Shown piece after piece: positions 8,016-18,070 of a stretch of 38,795 nucleotides of DNA. This DNA is from a virus, in IMG/VR virus record IMGVR_UViG_3300030117_005382, positions 1 through 38,795 of that record; one strand, 5' to 3'. How positions within the stretch are numbered: position 1 is the first letter of the stretch; the number at the start of each line of letters is the position of its first letter. The translations under genes and the position numbers were made by a program. The notes under the pieces were generated by a model. It searched no databases and was not told where the DNA came from. It saw nothing but the letters and a program-made list of their open reading frames with translations.

Positions 8016-8328
8016 AAACTAATATAAAAAATATTTCTCAAAAATAAAAATACTTGCATAATTCATTTATTTGATTATATTTAATCTCTATATAGAATAT
8101 ATTATAGAGAATATCTATATAGATTATCCCTATTAGAAAAGAAAAATTAATAATAAAAAGAAAAGTTGTTACAAAGTTTCAAAAATTGGTTTAGAATGAG
8201 TGTGAGTATTGTTATATACATCGACCACCCCCCGAAAATCTCGTTAGGGGGTTGAATTAGGTTGAAATTTTGGATTCAAACACAAATTATAATTAATCAT
8301 TTAAATTTGATTTATTTAGAGAAAAGGA
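8016..8328. promoter_or_regulatory. Gene-free control region upstream of terS (late promoter or packaging site candidate)
   Basis: I see no gene here. The terS-near part (to about 8170) is nearly all A+T. It holds an inverted repeat TCTCTATA/TATAGAGA (8085-8092 and 8103-8110) and a perfect 12-base palindrome ATCTATATAGAT (8113-8124), both suited to a dimeric regulator or a late promoter. Further away, ACCCCC (8227-8232) can pair with GGGGGT (8247-8252) across a 14-base loop, a GC island in A+T-rich sequence. A late promoter reading left must lie here or farther right. A packaging site next to terS is also plausible. Confidence 0.4.
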
Positions 8329-8362
8329 ACACAAACAAAAACGCCCTCTAACTAAGAGGGCG
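8329..8362 (-). terminator. Intrinsic terminator of the leftward small-gene cassette
   Basis: An 8-base-pair stem CGCCCTCT/AGAGGGCG (8342-8349 and 8355-8362) with a 5-base loop is followed, in the leftward direction, by TTTTTGTTTGTG. There is no T run on the other side, so it works for leftward RNA only. It lies 24 bases past the stop of the 57-residue gene and separates this cassette from terS. Confidence 0.8.
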
Positions 8363-8386
8363 CTATTGCTACACAATCGGCAACTA

Positions 8387-9824: not shown

Positions 9825-10247
9825 ATGAAAAATAAAACACAAAACACTACTGAAAACAAAGTAACAAACAAAGTTGATTTACATAATTTACTTGGTGTTG
9901 AAAAAGTTGCAAATACACAAGTTGATAAAAAGTTAAGTGAGAAAGCTCAAATAATGAAAAATGTAAATGATACAATGCACAAACTACTTTGTACGGAATA
10001 TTCAAATTACTACAAACATATTGAAACACAAATTGTACAAACGGATAAAGACGGCAATCATTCAATAAAAGATGTAAAAGGTTATTATTTGTTATTTCCT
10101 AAAAAAGTAGAGTTGAAAACAAAAGAAGGCACAAAAGCAAAATACGATGGTTTTCAAATTTGTAAACCAACATTGTATGTAAAAGGTGGTAGTAGTTACG
10201 AATGTTTAGATTTTACTGAAATTGGTAAAACAACATTTAATAACTAA
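9825..10247 (+). CDS. First rightward gene, hypothetical 140-residue protein
   Basis: The protein has a polar, flexible N-terminus (about residues 1-40), a helix (AQIMKNVNDTMHKLL) and a beta-rich C-terminal half (GYYLLFPKKVELKTKEG, then YDGFQICKPTLYVKGG). No known family comes to mind. It stands alone between the divergent control region and a strong terminator. This suggests a separately controlled and perhaps abundant very-early product, such as a takeover or DNA-binding protein. AAAGG lies 9-10 bases before the ATG. Confidence 0.75.
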   Translation: MKNKTQNTTENKVTNKVDLHNLLGVEKVANTQVDKKLSEKAQIMKNVNDTMHKLLCTEYSNYYKHIETQIVQTDKDGNHSIKDVKGYYLLFPKKVELKTKEGTKAKYDGFQICKPTLYVKGGSSYECLDFTEIGKTTFNN

Positions 10248-10274: not shown

Positions 10275-10316
10275 AAACCCTTGTCAATTAATTTTGATGA
10301 GGGTTTTTTGTTATGT
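10275..10316 (+). terminator. Strong rightward intrinsic terminator
   Basis: AAACCCT pairs with AGGGTTT, and the stem continues inward as TGTCAA/TTGATG with two G-U pairs. The stem is about 12 base pairs with a TTAATT loop and a run of six T at the end. It starts 27 bases after the first rightward gene, so later genes need read-through, anti-termination or their own promoter. Confidence 0.85.
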
Positions 10317-10338: not shown

Positions 10339-10590
10339 ATGAAATTGAATATTAATGAAAATAAGTATAATGTAAAGAAAAAGAAAATATTTACTGATTC
10401 ATATCAATTAACAATAACACCAAAGAAAAGAACTTGCTTTGTGTGTAAAAAAGGATTTGATTCAGTTGGTAATGAAACATTGTCCTGGTATGATGATGAA
10501 GGTTTTTATAGAATTAAATATTTCTGTAATAAACATTACAGATTAGCAAGAAGATTATTAGTTGAATCAAAAAGGAAAGCGCTTGATTAA
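10339..10590 (+). CDS. Small zinc-binding protein, 83 residues
   Basis: It has a basic N-terminus, then CFVC (C33, C36) and CNKH (C63, H66), a likely single zinc site of CxxC...CxxH form. Helix YRLARRLLVESKRKAL closes the protein. It starts with ATG at 10339 after GAGGAACTGAAAAT. It is the first gene after the terminator and is followed by the cloverleaf-like spacer. A nucleic-acid-binding role is reasonable but unproven. Confidence 0.75.
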   Translation: MKLNINENKYNVKKKKIFTDSYQLTITPKKRTCFVCKKGFDSVGNETLSWYDDEGFYRIKYFCNKHYRLARRLLVESKRKALD

Positions 10591-10593
10591 TTA

Positions 10594-10687
10594 ATATCAG
10601 TGTAGGTGATAAATACTATTATCAGAGTTTGAGAACAGACACTAACATTGTTAGTTATAACCTCATTATAGTTACCTACACTGATAT
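10594..10687 (+). ncRNA. Cloverleaf-like structured spacer (element 1)
   Basis: A perfect 14-base-pair closing stem (ATATCAGTGTAGGT at 10594-10607 with 10674-10687) encloses three hairpins: GATAA/TTATC with loop ATACTA (10608-10623), ACTAAC/GTTAGT with a 3-base loop (10641-10655), and TATAA/TTATA with loop CCTCA (10656-10670). A 17-base strand (10624-10640) stays open. The arms abut each other, as in a four-way junction. It lacks a T-arm consensus and CCA end, so it is not an ordinary tRNA. A strong AAAAGGAGG follows within 10 bases, so it may control the next gene, be a processing site, or be a stable RNA. Confidence 0.5.
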
Positions 10688-10710: not shown

Positions 10711-11109
10711 ATGGACAGAGTAAGTAGCAATATAATTATTAATGATTTTAATAAAGAAAAGGAAAAGCAAATGAAAAAAACTGCTTCAAAGAAAACACAA
10801 TATGATAGAATATCTGATTTGGTTAATTCTTACATTGATGATAGTATAACAGATGATGAATTGATAGAAAAGCTGTTAAAACTTGTCGGTAAAGAAATTA
10901 TAAAAATATCAGAAATGGAATACACTGTGTATGAAACGAGTAATTACAAACTGTATTTATGTTGTAGAGAAATTCATTCAACAGGTGGTTGGGTTGATGT
11001 GACTGATTTAACAGAGCTGAGAGTATGGGAATACAATCTACTTGTAGAAAAGTTAAACATTCATTATCCTGATTATCCAATTGAAAGACTTGAAAGTAGG
11101 TTTGTGTAA
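10711..11109 (+). CDS. Hypothetical protein, 132 residues
   Basis: Starts MDRVSSNIIINDFNKEKEKQ, then a lysine-rich linker, a helical part (ISDLVNSYIDDSITDDELIEKLL) and a beta-rich end with W and Y. The SD is AAAAGGAGG with a slightly long spacer; the preceding spacer holds the cloverleaf element. A second ATG 21 codons in (MKKTASKKTQ, after AAAGGAAAAGCAA) could also be used. Its stop overlaps the next ATG as TAATG. Function unknown. Confidence 0.7.
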   Translation: MDRVSSNIIINDFNKEKEKQMKKTASKKTQYDRISDLVNSYIDDSITDDELIEKLLKLVGKEIIKISEMEYTVYETSNYKLYLCCREIHSTGGWVDVTDLTELRVWEYNLLVEKLNIHYPDYPIERLESRFV

Positions 11110-11833: not shown

Positions 11834-12100
11834 ATGAAAACAAATGACATAAAAAAAGGAACAGAGGTTAAAACAATACAACTTGGAACGCCTGTGACAG
11901 GCATTATGATGGATAATATGCGTGGAAACACAAGGCTTATTAAAACACACGGCTCTGAGGTTGGAATGTTTGATGAAGTTGGTAGTGTATATGCAACAGA
12001 TATTATATCTGCCAAAGATAGTAATGGTAATTGGGTTGAGGTGGAACATACAGACAAACAGTTGAATGCAAAGAATATGAGAGGTATTTTTGGATTTTAA
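11834..12100 (+). CDS. Conserved phage-type small protein, 88 residues
   Basis: Starts MKTNDIKKGTEVKTIQLGTP, with the later segment NTRLIKTHGSEVGMFDEVGSVYATDI. The KTNDIKKGT start and the GSVYA-x-DI segment recall a small beta-barrel-like protein found in many phages, of unknown role. I chose the ATG at 11834 because AAAGGAGAGAAAA precedes it. A longer frame from 11774 would run through the structured spacer and has no ribosome site. Structured spacers flank it on both sides. Confidence 0.8.
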   Translation: MKTNDIKKGTEVKTIQLGTPVTGIMMDNMRGNTRLIKTHGSEVGMFDEVGSVYATDIISAKDSNGNWVEVEHTDKQLNAKNMRGIFGF

Positions 12101-12115
12101 TAGATAAATAATAAC

Positions 12116-12268
12116 TGAGTGAGAGCCAACAACTGGTCCTCCCTTCCAGGTACAGAGGTGTAAAAACCAGAAGTCGCTGAAGGGGTAAATAAGTCCTTAC
12201 ACAGAACTCGTCTAATTAAGTTTGGAACTCGTCTGATTAGGCAAAGGAATATGTGAGGCTCTCATTCA
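12116..12268 (+). ncRNA. Long structured spacer (element 3)
   Basis: A 12-base-pair closing stem with one G-U pair joins TGAGTGAGAGCC (12116-12127) to GGCTCTCATTCA (12257-12268), 129 bases apart. Inside are CTGGT/ACCAG (12133-12137 and 12166-12170) stacked on CCTC/GAGG (12138-12141 and 12155-12158). An overlapping alternative is GTGTAA/TTACAC (12158-12163 and 12197-12202). CCCTTC (12141-12146) can pair with GAAGGG (12179-12184), which gives a pseudoknot-like or alternative fold. A tandem repeat fills the 3' part. No reading frame of note covers it. AAAAGGAG follows shortly. Confidence 0.5.
12204..12239 (+). repeat. Tandem repeat of 21-base period inside element 3
   Basis: GAACTCGTCTAATTA (12204-12218) is repeated as GAACTCGTCTGATTA (12225-12239) with one change, spaced by six bases. 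The copies could bind a protein pairwise or be the result of a slip duplication within the structured spacer. Confidence 0.75.
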
Positions 12269-12287: not shown

Positions 12288-12587
12288 ATGTCAGAACAAA
12301 ATAGAAATGATGAGTTAGTAGCAAATATAACTGATAATATAAGAAAAATTACTAACACAAATCATTTAAGAACAATACAGAGGGAAATAAAAGAACAGAA
12401 AGATTACATTGGTAGAAAAATAGGTAATCAGTTACAGAGGGGCGATAATGTAAGAGTAAGTGGAAGTAATGGTATTGAGTATGGAACAATAGTTAAAGTA
12501 AACAGAACAAGAGCAGTCGTTAATATTGATGATATGCATTGGAATGTTCCATTTTCAATGATAACAAAGGAGGTCAACAATGGGTGA
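12288..12587 (+). CDS. Small protein with SH3/KOW-like C-terminal part, 99 residues
   Basis: The first ~50 residues are helical and polar (NHLRTIQREIKEQKDYIGRK). The last ~50 (RGDNVRVSGSNGIEYGTIVK, then RAVVNIDD) read like a small beta-barrel of KOW or SH3 type, seen in many short phage proteins. AAAAGGAGAATAAA precedes the ATG. It overlaps the next gene by eight bases. A nucleic-acid role is possible but not shown. Confidence 0.75.
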   Translation: MSEQNRNDELVANITDNIRKITNTNHLRTIQREIKEQKDYIGRKIGNQLQRGDNVRVSGSNGIEYGTIVKVNRTRAVVNIDDMHWNVPFSMITKEVNNG

Positions 12588-16699: not shown

Positions 16700-17493
16700 A
16701 AAGAGTTAAAAGTCCAGTAGATATTGAGGGAATATATGAAGAATATCTTGATGAATTACAAGAGAAAAACAGACTTGAAAGATATGATGGTAATGAGCAT
16801 TGGTATCATGCATCAGGAGCAGGTTCTTGTTCAAGGAAATTATACTTTGAATCAGTTGAAATGATACAGCCAACCAATTTATTAGATAAAAAAACAAAAA
16901 GACTGCTAAATCTTGGAAATTTAGTGCATGAAGATATACAAAATTCTCTTACGCGCACACGTAATAGAGAAATATATAATAGAGATAATAATATAGATTC
17001 TCTAATAGAAAAAGAAATTAATAATAAAGAAAAAGAAACTGAGTTTTTAGTTGAAGGTGAAATTAAAATCGAAGAATTAAATGTTAGAGGTTTCTATGAT
17101 ATTGTTGCTATACAAGAATTTGATAGTCGCAAAGTATATCTGTTCGATATTAAAACGTGTGGTGGTTGGTCTTGGAAAATGAAGTTTGGAAGAAATAAGC
17201 AAGTAAATACGAGTATACACTATGAGTTGCAGTTAGGCACTTATGGGTATGCTATACAGAAAGAATTCGGTCAATTAGATGGTATGTTTCTTTATTATTA
17301 CAATAAAGATGATTCTCAGATGAGAGCTGTTAAAGTTCCATCTACCTATGTTTCAAGAGCATATCTTTTTTGGCGGAATATAAACGATGAACATAAACAA
17401 GGATTACCTGATTTTAGAGTTGGAGTTTCACCTGTCCAAAAATGGCAGTGTAACTATTGTCAATTCAAAGAACATTGTAATCCTCCAAAATAG
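16696..17493 (+). CDS. Cas4/RecB-like PD-(D/E)XK nuclease with Fe-S cysteines
   Basis: This is likely the 5'-end resecting exonuclease of the phage recombination system. The nuclease core shows H79 (GNLVHED), D135 (GFYDIVA), D151-x-K153 (LFDIKTC) and Q179...Y183 (YELQLGTYGYA), matching RecB-type motifs in order. One cysteine before the core (C45, GAGSCSRKLY) and three at the end (C252, C255, C261) fit the 4Fe-4S staple of Cas4 and AddB. The start is GTG at 16696, overlapping the previous stop. The length of 265 residues is typical. There is no CRISPR array or other cas gene, so the role is phage recombination or replication and not adaptation. Confidence 0.85.
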   Translation: MKRVKSPVDIEGIYEEYLDELQEKNRLERYDGNEHWYHASGAGSCSRKLYFESVEMIQPTNLLDKKTKRLLNLGNLVHEDIQNSLTRTRNREIYNRDNNIDSLIEKEINNKEKETEFLVEGEIKIEELNVRGFYDIVAIQEFDSRKVYLFDIKTCGGWSWKMKFGRNKQVNTSIHYELQLGTYGYAIQKEFGQLDGMFLYYYNKDDSQMRAVKVPSTYVSRAYLFWRNINDEHKQGLPDFRVGVSPVQKWQCNYCQFKEHCNPPK

Positions 17494-17503
17494 GAGAGTG
17501 AAA

Positions 17504-18070
17504 ATGAGTAAAACAACACAAAATACATTCATGAAACTCTATAAGACTGATGTAAGTAAGTATATTGAGAAAAAAGGTCAATTTAATTACTTGTCTTGGT
17601 CATATGCGGTAGCAGAGCTGAAAAAAGCTTGTCCAACTGCAAGATGGGGAGTAACGAAAGCGGAGGATGGTTCGCCATTCTTTAAAACAGAGTGTGGTTA
17701 CTTTGTTGATGTATGGGTTGAAGTTGATGGTGTATCACTATCACAAATTCATCCTGTGCTTGATAATCGAAATCAATCGATTGAAAACCCAAATTCATTT
17801 CAAATCAATACGAGTTTGCAAAGAGCATTAGCAAAAGCAATAGCTCTGCATGGATTAGGATTATATATCTTTGCAGGTGAAGATTTGCCAGAACCTGATG
17901 CCTTATCTTCAAAAGAAGAGCAGTCTTTATATGATTTAGCAAAACCTCTTGGTAAGAAGTTTGTTGATGATTTAAAGGTTAAGGTAGCGAGTATGGATTT
18001 AAATGCACATAACTATGAAGCTGTTATAGAAAAAGTACAAAACATGATAAACGAGAAAGGAGATAAATAA
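17504..18070 (+). CDS. Single-strand annealing protein, Sak3/DUF1071-like
   Basis: This 188-residue protein should bind single-stranded DNA and anneal complementary strands. The text NYLSWSYAVAELKKACP near residues 28-44 and SLQRALAKAIALHGLGLYI at 104-122, followed by AGEDLPE, are the marks of the DUF1071 family, which phage recombinase surveys place with Sak3-type annealers. I chose ATG 17504 (after GGAGAGTGAAA); the frame open from 17387 lies inside the nuclease gene. It lies between the nuclease and an SSB-like gene, the standard arrangement. The family call is from memory. Confidence 0.75.
   Translation: MSKTTQNTFMKLYKTDVSKYIEKKGQFNYLSWSYAVAELKKACPTARWGVTKAEDGSPFFKTECGYFVDVWVEVDGVSLSQIHPVLDNRNQSIENPNSFQINTSLQRALAKAIALHGLGLYIFAGEDLPEPDALSSKEEQSLYDLAKPLGKKFVDDLKVKVASMDLNAHNYEAVIEKVQNMINEKGDK

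Follow-up and report, generated by a model that had tools for sequence, protein, structure and literature searches.

Pseudoknotted RNA folds between phage genes as likely portable and nested intercistronic cassettes

Comparison of an uncultured phage genome with related IMG/VR contigs indicates that a short structured RNA lying between two of its genes, here designated class A, is one of several fold-forming elements which occupy such spacers. The preferred reading, to which a probability of roughly 0.55 is given, is that class A represents one module among a group of RNA cassettes, portable and oriented in sense between cistrons, which would act in cis and be exchanged by short-homology recombination. 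At the level of sequence comparison, the conserved fold, the sense position, the presence or absence at a given site, the exchange of modules and their nesting could all be demonstrated.

The window, that is, the whole stretch of 38,795 nucleotides that was analysed, is the record of a 38.8-kb uncultured virus encoding an SU10-like major capsid protein, a P22-like portal, a large terminase and a DnaB helicase. Its relatives among isolated phages are distant, with about 27% identity in the terminase. The class A element and its surroundings comprise the following features:

10275-10306, + strand: intrinsic terminator, separate from the class A element, 3' of the gene at 9825-10247
10339-10590, + strand: upstream gene, a small CxxC-type protein of 83 aa; its stop lies 3 nt before the class A element
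10594-10687, + strand: class A element, P1 to P1' (94 nt; fold z -5.54; 78 bits with model R1; about 15 homologous loci)
10594-10607, + strand: P1 basal stem, 5' arm, half of a perfect 14-bp inverted repeat; 8 of 12 aligned P1 pairs changed on both sides
10608-10623, + strand: conserved hairpin GATAA-ATACTA-TTATC, with little or no change in its stem across 11 sequences
10615-10618, + strand: pseudoknot strand in the hairpin loop, ACUA (GUUA in most other copies), paired in 11 of 11 sequences
10625-10629, + strand: 5' strand of P3, GAGUU; 2 of 5 P3 pairs changed on both sides
10630-10658, + strand: variable cap, replaced or absent in L036, L125, L142, L144, L147 and L057
10659-10664, + strand: 3' strand of P3 (AA, bulged C, CUC), with the same P3 pair counts
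10669-10672, + strand: 3' strand of the pseudoknot, UAGU, paired in 11 of 11 sequences
10674-10687, + strand: P1 basal stem, 3' arm, the other half of the 14-bp repeat, with the same P1 pair counts
10711-11109, + strand: downstream gene, 132 aa, of no known family; its ribosome-binding site, AAAGGAGG, lies outside the class A element

Since the terminator at 10275-10306 is strong and follows the gene at 9825-10247, a new transcription unit probably begins with the gene at 10339 and the class A element. Elsewhere in the window, the spacer at 8210-8365, beside a divergent region, holds two G+C-rich inverted repeats (CCCCCC..GGGGGT and CGCCCTC..GAGGGCG), the second of which may terminate transcription of the leftward genes.

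A folding energy of -29.6 kcal/mol was obtained for the 94-nt RNA, compared with -14.5 +/- 2.7 kcal/mol in dinucleotide shuffles, none of which (0/200) was as stable. In a window-wide scan the element gave the top real intergenic fold signal on the + strand (z -5.9), and its minus strand also folds well (z -5.3). Thus, the view of the preliminary description that this is a structured RNA, unlikely by chance, was borne out, and so was its perfect 14-bp closing stem. Nevertheless, a 14-bp inverted repeat was present in 7 of 200 shuffled windows, which makes the stem by itself only modestly unlikely, and the case for the element therefore rests on the comparison with relatives. The element lies between the two open reading frames, outside any gene, as had been proposed, and ARAGORN found no tRNA or tmRNA genes in the window. 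No Rfam family matched above its curated score in the window or at the class A, B and C elements; two sub-threshold matches were unrelated, and two tRNA matches were located elsewhere than the elements. Also, no intrinsic terminator was called at 10594-10687.

By means of protein-guided and pattern-guided scans, the class A core was found in about 15 IMG/VR contigs or loci, a count which near-duplicate contigs inflate. The invariant parts are the hairpin GATAA-loop-TTATC (GAUAA/UUAUC in the RNA), followed by AGAG, and CCTCATTATAG/A-Y-TAC; as class A and class C loci were fetched with exact patterns which fixed part of the cores, this conservation is partly due to how the loci were selected, while stems, caps, flanks and the 5' strand of the pseudoknot were left free. 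In P1 the letters vary and the pairing is kept (AGGT/ACCT, AAGT/ACTT, and also further out). Across 11 sequences, 97.7% of the cells in the proposed pairs were standard and 19 were changed on both sides. Controls with slid partners reached 26-62% paired cells, with no more than 5 cells changed on both sides, and a count done earlier on eight sequences agreed with this. The pseudoknot is paired in every sequence, column pair 20-78 being G-C or A-U and column pair 21-77 being U-G, C-G or U-A. Covariation among the homologues thus extends to P1, P3 and the pseudoknot, and the alignment defines the class A core as P1, a short P3 topped by the variable cap, and one hairpin whose loop forms the pseudoknot with a 3' strand.

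When one sequence is folded alone, a cloverleaf-like drawing is favoured over the pseudoknot. Such a drawing, with three hairpins around a four-way junction, had been put forward at first, and the comparison replaces it with a pseudoknotted stem. In fact, only the first of those hairpins (10608-10623) is conserved, whereas most of the second and third falls in the variable cap, which is replaced or lost in other copies, and what had been taken for a 17-base open strand holds the 3' sides of P3 and of the pseudoknot. With the ARAGORN and Rfam results and the conserved fold being pseudoknotted, the suggestion of a tRNA mimic was also abandoned.

The search beyond these loci gave little. The class A pattern had no match in 84,980 cellular genomes; in isolated phages, classes A and C gave chance matches only, and the 809-nt neighbourhood of the element was likewise unproductive. 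A relaxed class A scan returned the loci already known, including L057, earlier found by model R1, together with chance matches in coding DNA, and a scan with the stem sequence alone gave chance matches, mostly in coding sequence.

A second class, C, is commoner than A, with about 90 contigs, near-duplicates included. It is laid out as P1, a loop AAYAACUGG/AAUAUGUGA, a stem UCCU/AGGA, a loop GUAAG/CAA and a variable tip; its pairs are 97.9% paired, and 8 of 9 P1 pairs are changed on both sides. The phage of the window carries one copy:

12119-12266, + strand: class C element (model R2, 52.8 bits, E 1e-10), between the gene end at 12100 and the gene start at 12288
12140-12189, + strand: module K, in the class C internal loop and without counterpart in standard C; also in L009, and in L141 with another interior
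12197-12239, + strand: apical insert of class C, near-identical to an insert at a different locus in L082 and replaced in L009

Recurrent modules D, E, F, G, H, I and M also occupy such spacers, the size of a module being about 60-150 nt. A small module, GCCTCAYGGGCAAGTCCCRTGGAC, was seen within C, F and H frames (L096, L102, L059, L069, L057, L047), and module M (CTCACGTCAGTATGAAATAGGACTACCGAGCA) in three spacers (L075, L154, L162) with three different closing stems. Tandem runs within a single spacer were also observed, in the order E-A-C in L147 (8810-9105, - strand) and D-C-D in L123 (8899-9163, + strand). Class C occurs, moreover, in two cellular records (L179, L180), one a Flavobacteriales MAG contig and the other from a single-cell genome of Prochlorococcus; on the basis of these two, the contigs are tentatively read as marine. 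The Prochlorococcus contig has the same length (46,061) as one viral contig of IMG/VR.

The elements are squeezed in after a stop codon and ahead of the ribosome-binding site of the following gene, mostly starting 0-35 nt past the stop, most often within about 20 nt of it, and ending 15-50 nt ahead of the next start. Of 66 class C elements, 64 had the downstream gene on their own strand and 63 the upstream gene, and 9 of 9 class A elements were co-oriented with the gene downstream. A sense position between cistrons is expected of an RNA embedded in mRNA, unlike a DNA element blind to orientation, and, judged from the sequence only, the position after the stop codon and the sense strand fit an intercistronic stabiliser or processing element. 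Among 36 records, model R2 detected a single copy in 29 and two copies in two; model R1 gave at most one per record. Dispersed elements of the MITE, REP or mitochondrial-hairpin type were ruled out by these mostly single copies, and the insertion in both orientations known for the MITE/REP type was not seen, given the same 64 of 66 class C and 9 of 9 class A elements in sense. A retroelement (group II intron, retron or DGR) was rejected as well, since reverse transcriptase PF00078 was absent from the 35 related records searched, which are possibly fragments. No exact insertion ends, transposition mechanism, transposase or target duplication were found.

The same boundary can hold different modules. 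After homologues of the 10339 gene, class A is present in the window, L036, L125 and L140, class B in L003, L004 and L006, class C in L011, and C plus B in L010, while in L009 an extra gene stands between the 83-aa gene and its class A element. At about 980-1185 of L009, TTGATTAAT is repeated either side of this extra gene. A and B use a common basal stem, ATATCAGTG/CACTGATAT, and either A or C is found on the basal stem TTAAATGA/TCATTTAA (L146/L141). Furthermore, class A occurs both free and nested, lying inside class C in L141, L142 and L143. Presence and absence at orthologous sites, a property of elements of the MITE/REP type, was observed in the spacer that separates the primase-helicase gene from an SSB-like gene, whose product has an acidic tail with PF or PW at its end. 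This spacer is empty (about 25-30 nt) in 10 loci and filled in others, by class C in 7 (three of them diverged copies) and by other folds in 3.

Exchange could be quantified in class C, where 90 elements represented 56 types of insert in 33 flank contexts; 8 contexts had two or more inserts and 9 inserts recurred in two or more contexts, all in metagenome contigs which may be chimeric at shared elements, as L145 appears to be. Two pairs of loci illustrate both directions: the flanks of L048 and L053 are 96/94% identical around unrelated inserts, and L096 and L102 share an identical 107-nt insert between unrelated flanks. Caps are common to different frames (C and F; C and E) and to unrelated loci. 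The window and L009 have nearly identical A and C elements and spacer, whereas the neighbouring genes differ and the C cap has been swapped.

These comparisons also bear on the proposal that the element is a leader control for the gene at 10711, which is unlikely in that form: homologues of the element stand ahead of many unrelated genes, relatives carry different classes at the same locus, and the relative L002 has a 10711-type gene and no element. On the preferred reading, the RNA module would act in cis within a polycistronic mRNA, where its most likely role is that of a compact barrier or insulator; it would shield the upstream message at its 3' end or separate the two cistrons, leaving the next ribosome-binding site uncovered. 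The cassettes would be exchanged by short-homology annealing recombination, their conserved arms acting as portable homology. The phage of the window encodes a PD-(D/E)XK nuclease and, as a candidate driver of this exchange, an annealase:

17387-18070, + strand: Sak-type single-strand annealing protein (SSAP_Sak, 1.4e-43; phrog_659, 1.4e-52)

The conserved loop letters exceed the needs of a passive barrier and hint that the RNA may have a more specific role, involving a protein, a ligand or catalysis, which is a serious rival to the barrier reading. Each module would then be a specific functional RNA, binding a protein or a ligand or cleaving itself as a ribozyme, and class A would be a new small pseudoknotted RNA working in trans or on its own transcript. 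The invariant unpaired letters, the pseudoknot, the single copy per genome and the lack of an Rfam match, ribozymes included, are all in line with such a role, but the replacement of one class by another at the same site and their nesting are odd for a specific switch, and no constant associated gene was seen; on balance, this is considered rather unlikely. Equally, a rather unlikely alternative is that of a selfish mobile RNA fold, that is, parasitic modules of no use to the phage, which would insert into spacers and into existing hairpins at their tips, where a self-contained fold does no harm. Such modules could leave one locus both empty and filled, nest in one another, place common caps in unrelated frames and loci and be indifferent to the downstream gene, which is not fixed; nevertheless, usually one copy of each class is present per genome, the conservation is strong, with compensatory change and strict sense orientation, and no reverse transcriptase in 35 records, transposase or target duplication was identified. 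It is quite unlikely that the conserved boundary blocks serve mainly as short homology for gene shuffling, with the RNA fold secondary. Recombination of this kind would need the primary sequence, yet P1 changes freely with pairing kept and unrelated classes occupy the same locus, even if the near-identity of the A and C blocks in the window and L009 beside differing genes, the Sak annealase and the variable gene content next to the elements are what such linkers would predict. Finally, chance, or an ordinary stem-loop of an A+T-rich spacer, for which the repeats in shuffled windows could be invoked, is already refuted by the covariation and is virtually excluded also by the z of -5.5 and the homologues in unrelated contexts.

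Beyond the portable cis-acting cassette preferred for class A, the chances are judged to be about even that these modules represent a kind of genetic element not known before: autonomous RNA folds, of about ten families in uncultured phages, which move between phage genomes as cassettes, enter both the spacers between genes, in sense, and the stem tips of other modules, and assemble composite RNAs through such nesting. Literature searches, which did not extend to one published large catalogue of structured phage RNAs, revealed no description of nested phage RNA cassettes. If true, phages would hold a combinatorial stock of RNA modules whose evolution proceeds through nesting and exchange, which would illustrate in nature how portable folds can be assembled into complex RNAs, and the plasticity of phage gene boundaries would be explained in part. 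Moreover, RNA classes A, C and others, which are new and backed by covariation, are open to direct probing, and the empty, filled and swapped versions of one locus make mobility and the effect on mRNA directly testable.

Several known systems invite comparison. REP/BIME sequences and other bacterial extragenic palindromes are transcribed intercistronic stem-loops found by stop codons, which stabilise the upstream mRNA; they are simple, multi-copy hairpins, and REP/BIME are tied to RAYT transposases. The phage modules are likewise intercistronic and next to stop codons, but multiple copies per genome were not seen. Recombination linkers at phage gene boundaries are conserved short blocks where gene content changes, whereas the block described here is an RNA fold kept by compensatory change, and different folds fill the same boundary. 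GOLLD and ROOL are conserved non-coding folds, some of them phage-borne, and stand in Rfam as single long RNAs (PMC12286853), in contrast to modules of about 60-150 nt, without Rfam match, which exchange and nest. The mobile hairpins of mitochondria include double-hairpin elements, the repetitive hairpin-forming elements of sponges and the palindromic GC clusters of yeast, whose units have been proposed to merge and shuffle (PMC2800124, PMC4478555). Like these, the phage modules are short, fold-forming, intergenic and present or absent between relatives; however, the mitochondrial elements are dispersed repeats, while the phage modules are usually single-copy, nearly always in sense and placed between cistrons, with pseudoknotted, covarying cores and an ordered nesting of distinct modules.
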